From contig JAKCVP010000391.1 of the NCBI GenBank assembly GCA_023512835.1, positions 372,001 through 436,000 on the forward strand: a stretch of DNA of 64,000 nucleotides. Direction: 5' to 3'. Below are positions 6,702-24,200 of this stretch, piece after piece (position 1 is the stretch's first letter; each line of letters starts with the position of its first letter). The notes beneath the pieces were generated by a model. That model did not search any database and was not told the origin of the DNA. It saw only the letters and a program-made list of their open reading frames with translations. This DNA comes from Taxillus chinensis (lineage: Eukaryota > Streptophyta > Magnoliopsida > Santalales > Loranthaceae). The position numbers and the translations under genes were made by a program.

Positions 6702-7543
6702 ATGCAGTCATTCGTTCTACTTGCGCTCGCCGCTATGGCAGCCGTCACTAATGCTGTTCCTACAACCAATGCTCCTGCCAAGGTTGATATCGTCACTGGT
6801 ACTGCGTACACTGCGACCTTTGACGAAGCTGACGCGCCCAACCTCCAGCCAACTCTGGGCGAGGTAAGCAGCAACCGCACCTACCAAGGTCTCAAGTAAG
6901 TCTCTTTCTGCACACACGGTCTGCCCTTTGTCAGAATGCTCACATGTCACAGCTGGACCGATGTCAACCTAGCCATCCAGAAGCCTTCTGGGACCGCCAC
7001 GACCTTCTTCCTAATCCCAGAGAGCCCGGCACAGTATGGCCAGATCCCCCCAGTATTCAAAGACTTGGCCAACTTTACCCGCGTCTTTTCTGACCCTACG
7101 GGAGTGTTGAGCAGTGCTAAGAAGAATGAGAAGATTCAGCTCAACGGCTTCTACTATGGTTGTTCTCTTCCCGAGCTCCTTCCTGGCTACTTCAACCGGC
7201 CCATCGACTGCACCGTTACTGTCACCGGAAGTGGTGGGATCGGTGGACAAGTTCAGACAATCTTCAACGAATACAAGCCAGTTATTGGTAAGTCTTCCTT
7301 TGTGGCCTTCTGGGGGGCATTGGCTAACAAGGTTGTGTAGGAGACTGTCTTTCGCTGGGATCGACAAGCTTGCAAGGTGGCGGTTGCGCTCGTTTGGCGT
7401 ATGTGGATGCGCAAGCTCTGTCATTTTACGGACCTTATGATACCATTACCATCAGCGCCCCTGCTTCTCTCAACCCCAACTCTACGCGCACTAGCGTCTT
7501 CATTGATGACGTGAGCTACACGACTCACAAAGTGGCTGTCTAG
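6702..7543 (+). CDS. Secreted hypothetical protein
   Basis: Three exons (6702-6895, 6953-7287, 7341-7543) give 243 residues. Introns are 57 and 53 nt with GTAAGT donors and CACAG/TGTAG acceptors. The start MQSFVLLALAAMAAVTNA is a clear signal peptide with cleavage expected after Ala18. The mature chain has an N-glycosylation site (NRTYQGLNWTD), several paired Cys and a beta-strand-like ending SVFIDDVSYTTHKVAV. That pattern is reminiscent of jelly-roll secreted proteins of filamentous fungi. I do not recognise a named family and assign no function. A secreted or cell-wall role is an inference from the signal peptide and Cys content. Confidence 0.75.
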
Positions 7544-15425: not shown

Positions 15426-17441
15426 TCAACCCTGTGCTTTACTCTTGTCCTTCGCCTTCCTCGGGTCAGCCTTCGGGTCCTGCCCCCTCCGCTTCTTGTG
15501 CTTCTGCAAAGCTCTCTCGATGAGTTTCTCATCGGCATCGTCATCGAAACCGCCAAACTCGTCTTCCTGCTCTTCCTGCTCCGCCGATGTTTCGTCGTCG
15601 GTTGAGCCAAGGACCGCTACGTTCTCGACTGCGACATCGTCGACGTCTGCGCCTCCACGGCGTGCATCGCCATTCACGGCGGCCGTCGAGGGAGTCGGGC
15701 CGGTCTTCTTGAATTTGCTGACGAAGAAGCCGTCCACGTTGTATGCATGCGGATAGTAGCGTCTAGTCATTTTCAGACTTGGGTGGAACTTCTTGCCCAT
15801 GTACGCTGTGAAGCCTTCGCGGCCGAACGTGAGTCCTGTTTCGACCAACTTGACGTTCGGGCGTTTGTTGAGAACGTATTGGACTACTTGTTCATTCTCC
15901 TCAACTGTGACACTACACGTACTGTAGACAATGTAGCCACCCGTTTTACTCCGATGATCTACAGAGTCAACAGCTGCAAGCAGCAATTGTTTCTGCAGGT
16001 GAGGAAGTCGTAGAAAGTCGGCCTCTGTCTTGTTGGTCTTGACACTTGCATCCTTGGCTATAACGCCTGTACCGGAGCATGGCGCATCGAGAAGCACACG
16101 ATCAAAGCCGCCCATTACTTTCGGAAACTCCATGGCGTTGTGATTGCAGATAATTGTGTTCTTCACACCTAGACGGTGCACATTACCAATCAGGGCTTTA
16201 GCTCTGTCCTTGTTCGAATCGTTGGCGAAGACTACGCCGGTATTCTTCATCAAAGCTGCGATATGAGTCGTCTTTCCACCGGGGGCGGAGGCCATGTCAA
16301 GAACCCGTTCGTTCTCCTGTGGCGCGAGAGCCATTACAGGAAGGAATGAGGATGCAGCTTGCAGGATGTAGTGGCCTGCGAGGTATTCTGGAGTAGCACC
16401 AAGTGGCACGGCACTTTCGAAGACCTGCAGCCCAACCTTGGACCACTTGCCCACAGGCTCCAGCTGTACTCCACGATTGATGAGCGTCTGAGCCAGCTCA
16501 CGGCGATGGGTGCGTAAGGTATTCGTGCGAATGACGATTGGACGAGGCGTCTCGTTAGCCTCGAAGAAGGCAAACGCTTCTTGCGCAGGGAAGAGGTTGA
16601 AAAGCTTTTCGGCGAGGAACTTGGAGTACCCATAGTAGGCGCAAATATCGCGGAGTAGTCCCTGCACATACTCGGCTCTCGAGCGGCCCTGGTGTTTCTC
16701 GTGGTCCTTATGTTGTTTCAGTTCAGTCAAGATGCGTATCGTGTCTGTGATACGAGTCCGTAGTAACTGTAGGTCAGGCGCAAGGCGGGTCTTCAAGCCA
16801 GGCTCTTCATCATCCTCGTCATCCAAAGCCGGTAGAGTGTCGCCAGCAATGTTGGTTTGCATTGCCGCTTCTTCAAGCTCAGCTTGTGCATCTGCTGCTT
16901 CTTGCGCTGCTTGAGCGTCGAGCTTGTTTGATATTGCTTCCGCGTTGGCTTTTTCAAGATCGTCGAGATCCCCATCTTCATCGTCAGACCACATGCCGAA
17001 ACCACCTGCAGGCTCATCGTCGTCTGACACCATAACATCATCGTCGTCTTCGTCAAACTCGTCAGAGGGAAGCTCGTCGTCATCTAGACCGTTCAGATCG
17101 AGGTCATCGAGCTTTTCCGCGCCGTCGCTGTCAAGGTCTTCGTCTGAGTCGAGAAGCTGCGCCTTTTTGGGTACTTTGGCCTTGGGCTTGGCTAAGGTGC
17201 CGTTGGTGTCTTTCTTGCCATGGCCATTGACAGGCACTTTGACAGCAGGCTTGGTGGACTTGTCGTTCGACTTGCCGTTGGTGACAGGAGCAACATCGTG
17301 GGATCTCCTTCTCTTCTTCGCCTGTGGTTCAGCTTGTATTACTGGTATGTCTTTGCGTTTCTTCGAGAGCTTGCGTTCGTCTAGCTTCTCAGGCATACCC
17401 TGATGCTTCAGTCGATTGCTCAAAGGCTTGCTTTTCCCCAT
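15426..17441 (-). CDS. NOP2: NOP2, 25S rRNA cytosine-C5 methyltransferase
   Basis: A single exon of 671 residues. The first 220 residues are basic then very acidic, as is usual for nucleolar NOP2. The NOL1/NOP2/Sun methyltransferase core follows, with the SAM-binding motif VLDMASAPGGKTTHIAAL (about residues 378-395), motif IV DAPCSGTGV (about 455, including one catalytic Cys) and motif VI YSTCSVTVEENE (about 503, the second Cys). The C-terminal TRRYYPHAYNVDGFFVSKFKK is typical of the family. NOP2 methylates a cytosine in the large-subunit rRNA and is needed for 60S assembly. The gene is divergent from the U3 snoRNA locus that starts 225 bp upstream. Confidence 0.95.
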   Translation of the reverse strand: MGKSKPLSNRLKHQGMPEKLDERKLSKKRKDIPVIQAEPQAKKRRRSHDVAPVTNGKSNDKSTKPAVKVPVNGHGKKDTNGTLAKPKAKVPKKAQLLDSDEDLDSDGAEKLDDLDLNGLDDDELPSDEFDEDDDDVMVSDDDEPAGGFGMWSDDEDGDLDDLEKANAEAISNKLDAQAAQEAADAQAELEEAAMQTNIAGDTLPALDDEDDEEPGLKTRLAPDLQLLRTRITDTIRILTELKQHKDHEKHQGRSRAEYVQGLLRDICAYYGYSKFLAEKLFNLFPAQEAFAFFEANETPRPIVIRTNTLRTHRRELAQTLINRGVQLEPVGKWSKVGLQVFESAVPLGATPEYLAGHYILQAASSFLPVMALAPQENERVLDMASAPGGKTTHIAALMKNTGVVFANDSNKDRAKALIGNVHRLGVKNTIICNHNAMEFPKVMGGFDRVLLDAPCSGTGVIAKDASVKTNKTEADFLRLPHLQKQLLLAAVDSVDHRSKTGGYIVYSTCSVTVEENEQVVQYVLNKRPNVKLVETGLTFGREGFTAYMGKKFHPSLKMTRRYYPHAYNVDGFFVSKFKKTGPTPSTAAVNGDARRGGADVDDVAVENVAVLGSTDDETSAEQEEQEDEFGGFDDDADEKLIERALQKHKKRRGQDPKADPRKAKDKSKAQG

Positions 17442-17665
17442 TGTGCTTGCTGTGAAAAGTAACTCAAGAGGGGTCTCCGGTCTGCGCTGTGGTCGTGCTG
17501 CATTTCACTTGCCCGAACTTTTTTTCGAATCTTCACTGCTAGCTCACCCGACGTGCAGCCGCCGGCCATGCGCGGCTTAGTTTTTCCGTCGGAAAATCTG
17601 CTAGCGTCCGTCCAAGAATTTCGCATATAATCTCGCTCGCCCGTCCATTCTCTCTTCCTTCTTCA
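17442..17665. promoter_or_regulatory. Divergent promoter between NOP2 and U3 snoRNA
   Basis: This is 224 bp between the NOP2 start codon (minus strand) and the predicted U3 5' end (plus strand). A TATA-like element, CATATAAT at 17624-17631, lies 35-42 bp upstream of the U3 start, a sensible Pol II spacing. Sharing by two ribosome-biogenesis genes is an inference from position. Confidence 0.5.
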
Positions 17666-17984
17666 GTCGACTTTAGTACGTCCTTCCCAGCACCTACCAG
17701 CACCCAGCACACTTGCTAACGACCTCCACAGCTTCATAGAATCAATTCTATAGTAAACGACCTTCTTGATGTTCTCCTGAACAGCTACAAACCTCACCCC
17801 AGGCGATGACTACATATCCTCGCTGCGCTAGAGTGATGCGGATTTACCTTCGTTCGTGCACTTTTCGAAAAGCCTTCGGGCGAAGTAGAGCTGTGCCAGA
17901 GGGTGGCTATGATCTCTGCCTCGCCCGGCTTCGACTTACGTCGGCTGGACGACGGCGCGCGGCGATGGAAGTCTGATGGGCTCT
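17666..17984 (+). ncRNA. U3 snoRNA (box C/D, intron-containing)
   Basis: U3 guides the early cleavages of pre-rRNA in the SSU processome. The proposed RNA has a 10-nt exon 1 (17666-17675, GTCGACTTTA), a 56-nt intron (17676-17731; donor GTACGT, branch GCTAAC, acceptor CCACAG) and exon 2 to about 17984, for about 263 nt mature. Splicing creates GACTTTACTTCATAG, matching the U3 5' leader, followed by TTCTATAGT, the end of box A. Further boxes appear in canonical order: C' (GGCGATGAC, about 17793), B (GAGTGATG at 17831), C (CTATGATCTCTGCC, about 17908) and D (GTCTGA at 17971-17976). The C'-to-B spacing is close to that of yeast U3. An intron at this spot matches the two Saccharomyces U3 genes. 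Box A itself differs from the usual GGATCATTTC (see findings), so a degenerate copy is possible. The exact 3' end is estimated. Confidence 0.72.
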
Positions 17985-18486: not shown

Positions 18487-19658
18487 ATGGCTCTTCTTGT
18501 CGACAAGCACCGCCCTCACAAGCTTGAAGATCTCACGTACCATGCTGATCTCACTGCACGCCTTCGCGCGCTGGTATGTACTGCTTTGGCCTTAGATAGC
18601 AGCATAAACTCACGGTGAACACAGGCGCAATCAGGCGATTTCCCACATCTTCTCGTCTACGGTCCCTCCGGGGCTGGCAAGAAGACCCGCATCGTCGCCA
18701 CCCTCCGCGAATTGTACGGCCCCGGTGTAGAAAAGATCAAGATCGACTCGCGCGTCTTCCAAACGTCATCAAACAGAAAGCTCGAATTCAATATCGTCGC
18801 ATCGATCTATCATTTGGAGATAACACCTTCAGACGTTGGCAACTACGACCGTGTCGTCGTTCAAGATCTGTTAAAGGAAGTGGCACAGACACAGCAGGTC
18901 GATCTATCAGCGAAGCAGAAGTTCAAGGTCGTGGTGATCAACGAGGCCGACCAGTTGACACGAGATGCGCAGGCTGCGCTGAGAAGGACAATGGAAAAGT
19001 ACAGTCCTAACCTTCGACTGATATTGTTGGCCAACTCCACATCAAACATCATCGCACCTATAAGGTCGAGAACGTTGCTGGTCCGGGTAGCAGCGCCTAC
19101 AGAGGTGGAGATTTGCGAGGTTCTAAAAAAGGTGGGAAAGATGGAGCACTTCAAGGATGTGGATGCCTTGAATCAGAAAATAGCTCGAGAGAGTGGCCGC
19201 AATCTGAGAAGAGCACTGTTGATGTATGAAGCGGTCCATGCACAAAAGTACGATCCTCTGCTACGCTGGCCCTGATTATCACTGACATATCTCATAGTGA
19301 AGTAGTGTCAGAGAAGACACTGGTGCCTCCACCAGACTGGGAAGCACTTATTTCACAAATCGCAGACGAAATATATGAGGAGCACACACCAGCTAGGATC
19401 CTACAAGCCCGAGCAAAGCTATACGACCTCCTCACCCATTGCATACCTGCGACCACGATACTGAAGACATTGACATGGAAGTTGATACCCAAAGTCGACG
19501 ACGCGCTGAAGCCAGAAATCATCAAGTGGTCGGCGTTCTACGAGCATCGAATTCGACAAGGAACTAAGGTCATCTTCCATCTAGAAGCATTCGTTGCAAA
19601 GTTCATGCGCGTCCAAGAAAGCTTCTTATGCGGCATGGATATTGATTTCGACATCTAG
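18487..19658 (+). CDS. RFC5: Replication factor C small subunit (yeast Rfc5 / human RFC3 orthologue)
   Basis: Three exons (18487-18573, 18625-19247, 19298-19658) give 356 residues, the same length as human RFC3. It starts MALLVDKHRPHKLEDLTYH. The P-loop is GPSGAGKKTR; the KK form is characteristic of this subunit. Walker B is VVVINEADQL, lacking the classical DExx acid as expected for the Rfc5/RFC3 branch. The sensor/SRC region reads APIRSRTLLVRV, with Thr where family members usually have Cys. The C-terminal collar domain begins after PPPDWEALI. The protein is a subunit of the RFC clamp loader that places PCNA on primed DNA and of the alternative Rad24, Ctf18 and Elg1 loaders. The last intron was chosen because it restores HAQNEVVSEKTLVPPPDWE in frame. 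Confidence 0.93.
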
Positions 19659-21231: not shown

Positions 21232-24200
21232 ATTTCGTCGAGTCATGCAGGAGCGGCCGCAACGGAGCCAAAGGGCAGTCGAAAATGAAAAGTTATTCAA
21301 CTACAGCAGTGGGCGGTTTCGTCTTTGTCGAATGCTGTCGAGTAGGTACTGGGCATTGATTAATCTCAGACGGAGAAGTCTTGGAAAGAACAATGTTGAT
21401 GAGAGCTGTTAATGAGGAATGTGCCTGAGATCGGATGGCTCGAGTGTGTCGCTCCTTCCCTGGACAGTCTGCGCCTGCCATCGAAGACAATCGTAGGCCG
21501 GATGCCACCAGCACGCTCGCCGCTCATCCGAACAACCTTACGATCGTAGAACTATCGCGTTGAGCACATGAGTAAAGACGTAGATTCAATGAGCGTCAAA
21601 ACCTTTAGCTCTCTCTTGAGACTATGAACACAAGTATCGTCAATTCTGGCACTCAGCAAAGCCAACGCCGACTGTAACGCGCTGGCTCCTAATGACGAGA
21701 TTCCCCAACACAAGGAGCCCTCGAGCATGTATTCATGAGCTGGTTCAAGGATGGTCTGCCATATTCGAGAACGGGAATAGCATCAAGATAGTTAACGTGC
21801 CCAGATTTCAAGAATCCTGTTGGATAAAGTATGTGAGTAGTGACAAGAACACTGAGAAGCTTCAGGTCTTGCCATCAGAAATGCTGACTTGACTTGTCAA
21901 GTATCTGCTACAAATCAAGCGCACCAACGAGAGGTAGTGCTCAGAGCCGAGGCTGGCATACAATTCGATGAATAAGTTCGCCATGCTGCATTTCTTCCGA
22001 GGTGCATGCTTGCTTCTCAAAGCCCGGCACGACTTCGAACAGCTCCAGAGCAGGCCTTGAGACTGCTAAACACTTTTGAATGTGAAGCATACTGTCATGG
22101 CGCCCGGCAGCAATTCGCACAGCAAATGTGCTCGGAGAAAAATCAATTCGACACAGGGGAAAGAGCTTCTGGCAAAGTGGCAATCTCTGCAATACTCAAC
22201 TCTAATTACTCACAGAAAGGGATTGAAATGTTACACAGCAGACCGATGCTTTGCAGACACAGAGACGCCGGTAAAGCACCAGTCAGACATGTATACAGAA
22301 GCCTGCAGAGACCCACGCAGGGTCTCTTCAGTGAATCTAGGCTCAGGCAAGATGCGGGGGGTGAAGAATTCGTAAGCAGATTCTTTATTCTCATAGGGCC
22401 GGCCACTCATTGAGACTTGCAGCGCACCGGCTGACGCGAGATCGTCTAGCTAGCAGGAAGCAGGCGCCTAAGAAACAATGCATGAAGGTCGGGACTGGCA
22501 CTCCGCCTGGGACTCGACTCGAATCCCGGCATGGAGTTGCCTTCGACTAGCGTTGGCCCTTCGAATCCCAGCAATCGAAGTGGGTACAACGGCCCGTTGT
22601 AGCGTTGGATGACTTGCAATCGCGCCCGCGAATACATGGCCTGGGAAACCTTATGGCAAGCTTCATCGTCAGCGGCGATTAAGGCACCAATGCGGAGACG
22701 GAGGCGAGGCCACGCAACCTGGAATCCTCACATGGAGGCTTGACGAGCCTCTGAGAATGCCATGCGTGACCAAGCCTCTGTGGAGAATATCTATGCCGGG
22801 CAACACGACACAGTGGACATGTGCTGTTGATGATCGGGTCATGGAAGTAGCTTCTCGGTGGCTCCTCAACGACTTGACATGGTTAGCTGCGGCGTGTAAG
22901 GTGGTAGTCAGCGGTTCACTACGGCAAGCTAGAGACAACCAGGCAGACTGGGATCTACGAGAACGCCACTATCCAGTCGCACCAGCTTTTTCTACAGCAG
23001 ACAGGATCAGTGCCTCTAGGACTACTGCGGTATCTTGTGGTTACATGCTCGTTGAACGCGGAGGCTGAGACATGGACTCGACGTCGAGATGCCAAAGACT
23101 AGTGAGCAACCTAGGTGTGCATTGCGTATCCGTTACTCGAGCATTCGAAGCAGCTCGAAGACTTTGGCCTAGCTGCAACTACAAGGGGGTAAGCTCAGCG
23201 GGTCGTGCAGAGCGCGACGGGATGAGACAAGTCTTCTGGCCGAGCAAATCGCGTAACCCATTCTCATGACGACGTCTTGTTTGCGTACGAAGCTCAGTTC
23301 GGCCAGCGTCCGAAGAGGCTATCCCGCAGCGCCCAGCCAGGCGCAGTTTCTTGCGCATGCATAGAATGGTGGACTTGGCCCAGCTAGCATGTGACTGGCG
23401 GACGGCAGCATTGTCTACTCCGTCTGATGGGCAGATGGCAGGCAGGTACATTGATATCGTCAGAGTACCTCAAGAAAGGTGGTCAGCTTTGATAGCTGCA
23501 GGCACAGTTCCCGTGCCTCGGCGACGGGAGTAGAGGCTGAGGAGCAGAAGTCGCCTGGCTGCATACAATGGTACCGACGGAATCTCACAGCTGTAGGCCA
23601 TCTTCCATGCACAGTGCGCGCTTACAGCTGAAGGTGCAGCAATATGACGAGATTAGCCGTTGCAAGGCGGACTCAGGAGGTGCTCATGGAGAGATGTTTT
23701 GCAGCAGGCGATTGGCGCGGCCGCTAAAATAAATGATTGCAGCGCAAGCACGAGGGAAGCAGGGCAGGTTGTGGGCGTGGAGCAGTTGCAAGAGTGGCAC
23801 AAGGAGTGCCGATCGAACAGATGAGCAGCCCGTCGTCGGCGAAGGGCCGTGGAGGAAGGTTGAGTCGAGTGCTGCAGGGAGGGAGGCTTGCATGGGGGCA
23901 GCTAGCGGGAGCAGAAAGGACATGAAAAGGCGAGGAGATACCTCCTGGTCGGGTGGACGTGTGACGCCCATGTGCGTCTGCAGTGCCGAAGCGTGCGGAC
24001 ATTGTTCTAGAAGGGGCAGTCTGGAAGCCCAGGCAGCGTGCGTGGCTTGACTAGGCCGCACCACAGACCCCACGAGGGCCTGCATGGAGAAAAGCCAAAC
24101 GCCTCGGGATAAAGCTTCTCAAATGAAGCGGTCACCAGAGCCATGGACGGCGAGAGGAGCGCAGTCGGGGTGTGGGTGACTTGCAAGCGCAGGTCAGGTC

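Follow-up and report, generated by a model that had tools for sequence, protein, structure and literature searches.

A fungal U3 snoRNA gene with a short predicted intron, adjacent to NOP2, in the Taxillus chinensis genome assembly

The window analyzed here, a 64-kb stretch of DNA (G000:C221:372001-436000), very probably carries a working U3 snoRNA gene of a Pezizomycotina fungus, in which nucleotide 10 is followed by a single short spliceosomal intron. The contig that holds it measures 505,796 bp, within an assembly of 520,938,286 bases and 264 contigs. The family match, the order of the boxes, the restoration of the exon junction, the pairing of the 5′ stem, and the complementarity to 18S rRNA that make up the spliced U3 reading were all computed.

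The identity of the gene was explored using covariance models. The fungal U3 model RF01846 matched the plus strand at positions 17722-17981 with 114.9 bits, against a gathering cut-off of 95, and with an E value of 8.4e-28 for the 64-kb window. These values exclude chance for the exon 2 body and bear out the U3 locus proposed in a preliminary description of this DNA. RF01846 is the sole Rfam family that reaches its gathering score within the 64-kb window. The alignment of the unspliced DNA spans the full model (1-274), with low posterior values in its middle part. The preliminary description had given the gene a span of 17666-17984, of which the start stands and the 3′ end is corrected to 17981 by the model; the spliced RNA is predicted to be about 260 nt long.

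Exon 2 (17732-17981, plus strand) forms the snoRNA body. It contains box A (GAATCA, 17739-17744), which belongs to a segment with computed pairing to the fungal 18S rRNA start (UGAUUC), followed by box C′ (GCGATGA, 17803-17809, with the GATGA core at 17805), the core of box B (AGTGA, 17832-17836), box C (ATGATCT, 17909-17915, with ATGATC at 17909), which matches the Rfam consensus, and box D (CTGA, 17973-17976). The RF01846 alignment and a motif search place boxes A′, A, C′, B, C, and D in this order, with box A′ present only once the RNA is spliced, and the canonical order of C′, B, C, and D described earlier is among what they recover. The strict published patterns (PMC5832005; Canzler, Stadler, and Hertel, 2017) were matched in the spliced sequence for A′, B, and D. 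Those for A (GYATCW), C′ (WYGATGA, one letter away from the box found), and C (RTGATGA) had no exact match there, and these three boxes were assigned via the RF01846 alignment.

The neighborhood of the gene was also examined. On the minus strand, at 15426-17441, lies NOP2, encoding a 25S rRNA (cytosine-C5)-methyltransferase (PF01189, 2.7e-74; best chain 8i9r_CP, nop2-like, 2.7e-241). These domain and solved-homologue matches confirm NOP2, which lies divergently from U3 as reported at the outset, its start codon being 224 bp away from U3 +1. A TATA-like element, CATATAA (17624-17630, plus strand), identified by motif match only, has its TATAA starting 40 bp before U3 +1. Downstream, on the plus strand, a gene for a replication factor C small subunit was read over 18487-19275, with an intron at 18574-18624 and 245 residues up to the first stop; the best chains for this clamp-loader subunit bear the name Replication factor C subunit 3 (1.1e-80), and 7sgz_E, named subunit 5, gave 4.3e-73.

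Given their proximity of 224 bp, a working promoter shared by NOP2 and U3 is possible. It is unlikely, on present evidence, that one divergent promoter co-regulates the two genes, one for a large-subunit rRNA methyltransferase and the other for an RNA of the small-subunit processome, and has been kept in the fungal lineage as a conserved unit beyond mere neighbors. Such a unit, which would be compatible with the U3 gene proposed here, agrees with the adjacent, divergent placement of the genes and with the part that both play in ribosome assembly, but neither the HomolD core nor PAC or RRPE motifs occur in the 224 bp between them. HomolD controls C/D snoRNA genes in ascomycetes, according to PMC8162545. 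The 64-kb window has only two HomolD matches, at 23390 and 53903, with 3.1 expected by chance. A literature search combining nop2, U3 snoRNA, and divergent promoter returned no report, which says little, since subscription papers were mostly outside its reach.

At the 5′ end of the gene, exon 1 (GTCGACTTTA, 17666-17675, plus strand) forms the 5′ arm of hairpin M1 and also supplies the opening two bases of box A′. It is followed by a predicted intron of 56 nt and spliceosomal type (17676-17731, plus strand; GTACGT...GCTAAC...CACAG). The branch motif GCTAAC at 17715-17720 fits RCTRAC, with the branch A located 12 nt before the last base of the intron; the acceptor is CAG, and the donor GTACGT is one letter off the consensus GTRWGT of PMC5832005. 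Joining of the exons forms box A′ (TA|CTT) from two bases of exon 1 and three of exon 2. When exon 1 takes the place of the intron stretch, the first 18 positions of RF01846 are aligned without gaps, with 15 consensus identities versus 10 for the unspliced DNA. The spliced M1 hairpin makes 14 of the 15 Rfam 5′-stem pairs and folds at −10.4 kcal/mol, a value reached by none of 200 shuffled sequences. The predicted 10-nt exon 1 and 56-nt intron, already described with these same signals, are therefore strongly supported, splicing restoring both box A′ and the stem.

The choice of splice sites was compared with alternatives in the window. Among 34 GT/AG combinations (donors within 17400-17734, acceptors within 17690-17741, length 35-300), the pair 17675/17732 ranks best, and no other restores box A′ together with more than 11 of the 15 stem pairs. 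As a measure of chance, 10-mers from the plus strand of the window were set before exon 2: 259 of 63,990 reach at least 14 pairs, and 40 of 63,990 do so and restore box A′. Ninety-seven window 10-mers lie directly 5′ of a GTRNGT donor, and two of them reach the pair count, the exon at 17666 and one at 7278.

These results bear on a different reading, that of an intronless U3 gene starting within the supposed intron, with the 10 nt upstream matching by chance. Intronless U3 genes do occur in fungi (PMC5832005), and Rfam aligned the unspliced DNA over the full model. That alignment, however, enters the intron at its 5′ end (from 17722), where the pairs are broken; the unspliced 5′ stretch has no box A′, makes only 10 of the 15 stem pairs, and folds at −3.6 kcal/mol, with 9 of 200 shuffles as good. 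Moreover, the splice signals and the restored junction fall together at one place, which leaves an intronless gene highly improbable. The case shows that a plain Rfam annotation (17722-17981) lacks exon 1 and lets U3 begin within the intron.

With the U3 gene taken as spliced, its 5′ end is complementary to the start of the fungal 18S rRNA found in the same assembly. A search with a fungal 18S pattern gave seven copies on contig C1, all seven of which start with TACCTGGTTGATTCTGCC. Nucleotides 1-40 of the spliced U3 pair with this start at −15.4 kcal/mol (14 of 2,000 shuffles as good), and a smaller shuffle run on the UGAUUC form gave 10 of 1,000. The predicted duplex has 11 contiguous pairs including box A, and an ACU/AGU helix crosses the splice junction. 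The first 96 nt of the unspliced sequence reach −11.9 kcal/mol on the fungal start, with 302 of 500 shuffles as good, and exon 2 alone reaches −10.8 kcal/mol (105 of 2,000). On a plant-type 18S start, the spliced end gave −10.9 kcal/mol, and on a UGAUCC form, −11.1 kcal/mol (106 of 1,000 and 123 of 1,000 shuffles as good in two runs). Since at least two fungal 18S types are present on C1, the 18S rRNA used here may not be that of the fungus of the window.

Box A of the window gene reads GAAUCA, and both fungal 18S types on C1 start with UGAUUC; PMC10789308 prints a fungal primer with the UGAUUC start, and PMC2958029 gives an SSU primer. In yeast, box A is GGAUCA, the exon-junction primer being printed as ...TACTTCATAGGATCATTTC in section 6 of PMC3454408. 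A compensatory change between box A and 18S rRNA was considered and weakened by two controls. Putting G back into box A at the differing position leaves a pairing of −14.9 kcal/mol with the fungal 18S, and the yeast U3 5′ end hardly prefers UGAUCC (−16.7 kcal/mol) over UGAUUC (−16.4 kcal/mol). The A/U match between box A and 18S rRNA thus counts little by energy and is weak evidence. For the hinge, the best site in the 5′ external transcribed spacer (ETS) lies about 222-241 nt upstream of 18S, with 3 of 60 shuffled ETS sequences as good, so that this pairing is only suggestive.

By analogy with established U3 biology, the window gene would be transcribed, spliced, assembled into a snoRNP, and used in pre-rRNA cleavage. 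The TATA-bearing promoter would give rise to a precursor starting at about 17666, from which the spliceosome would remove 17676-17731, joining the halves of box A′ and completing the first hairpin. The C′/D and B/C motifs would then assemble the snoRNP, and the 5′ end of U3 would pair with the start of 18S in the pre-rRNA and guide small-subunit processing.

The host of the sequence was addressed through NOP2 and through other U3 loci. The NOP2 protein has a best match of 78%, and its closest named relatives share about 62% identity among the best 120 of 7,823 matches. Within those 120, these named relatives are mostly Dothideomycetes with some Leotiomycetes. A plant U3 gene is present elsewhere in the assembly (L003:1502-1713, on the 51.7-Mb contig C2), where model Plant_U3 aligned over 1-221 without an intron at 170.7 bits. 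The fungal relatives of NOP2 together with this plant U3 mark the window as fungal sequence within a plant assembly of 521 Mb, most simply derived from an endophyte, an epiphyte, or a contaminant. Across the assembly, RF01846 has at least two matches, the window gene and the plant U3 (59.7 bits, below the cut-off), a lower bound given that scoring covered 24 of the 10,439 first-look candidates; among those 24, the window U3 is the only match above the cut-off. It is very unlikely that this U3 copy has decayed or fallen silent and that the fungus has its working gene at another place in the genome. Boxes A and C′ are one letter off the published consensus, the assembly may lack some of the fungal sequence, and further copies could be missed at this sampling; against this, the boxes are in place, as are the 5′ stem and the computed 18S pairing, and the sole other scored match is the plant gene.

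Other fungal and plant sequences were encountered in the assembly. The array of fungal rDNA (L012-L018; G000:C1:263018-329190), with a repeat length of about 11 kb, lies within the 58.1-Mb contig C1, with parts read as N, and its 5.8S adjoining the 18S copies is presumably of fungal type. The presence of this array in a plant-assembly contig may be a scaffolding error. Beside it lies a second, differing fungal-looking 18S type that starts with UGAUUC (L023:1-1087, minus strand; about G000:C1:339163-340249), and the assembly may therefore hold at least two fungi or rDNA types; the array does not count as evidence of one fungus only. A group I intron match of 71.8 bits (L019:4028-4329, minus strand) sits in a 1,210-base insert near the 3′ end of a fungal 18S. 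A seed-plant 18S pattern had five matches on C3 and C6, with irregular 18S starts that may mark fragments. To judge by their open reading frames, contigs C16 and C248 hold fungal-looking genes as well.

Searches of other collections returned little. A search for related fungal loci found no stretch with the U3 patterns in a genome-contig collection, and the fungal-type 18S pattern had no match in a viral-contig collection. One U3-pattern stretch in the latter (L001) had no Rfam match at gathering score and was taken as chance. A scan at bacterial settings found no tRNA genes within the 64-kb window.

The U3 introns of fungi have been surveyed in 147 genomes, where 138 of 310 U3 genes contain one, including those of the vast majority of the Pezizomycotina analyzed (PMC5832005). 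In that survey, the first hairpin carries 133 of the 138 introns in its 5′ half, and the introns of Dothideomycetes show slight variation in position. GT-AG ends predominate, as do RCTRAC for the branch site and CAG for the acceptor. Direct experimental evidence is attributed there to Saccharomyces cerevisiae and Neurospora crassa only. In N. crassa, three U3 genes all contain a small intron (Liu et al., 2009, as cited in PMC2780460 and in PMC5832005), and PMC2780460 describes these genes as independently transcribed. A U3 intron in a filamentous ascomycete was consequently on record both in N. crassa and in most Pezizomycotina analyzed, and a claim of novelty is not supported. Nor is such an intron enough to show that the U3 intron is old, as had been suggested, given that the authors of PMC5832005 could not distinguish on their data one old gain with sliding from several separate gains. 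The window gene is one more well-delimited intron-bearing U3 gene, and the picture of U3 introns and their age is unchanged.

The window gene fits the known Pezizomycotina pattern (PMC5832005) in its U3 body, box order, and M1 hairpin, and in having just one short intron, which lies in the 5′ arm of M1 and has GT-AG ends, an RCTRAC branch, and a CAG acceptor. It differs in the length of the intron, 56 nt versus an average of 92 nt, and in its donor and box A, GTACGT and GAATCA where the consensus is GTRWGT and GYATCW. With N. crassa it shares the small intron in a filamentous ascomycete. With S. cerevisiae SNR17A/B it shares an intron near the 5′ end; that of yeast is removed by the spliceosome, has the branch GACUAAC, and in U3A measures 157 nt rather than 56 nt (PMC3454408). 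The two introns had been described as lying at nearly the same place, and near they are, although the sites are apparently not identical: the insertion follows TTTA in the window gene, whereas the yeast site, as judged in part from the primers printed in PMC3454408, apparently lies about five bases further 3′.
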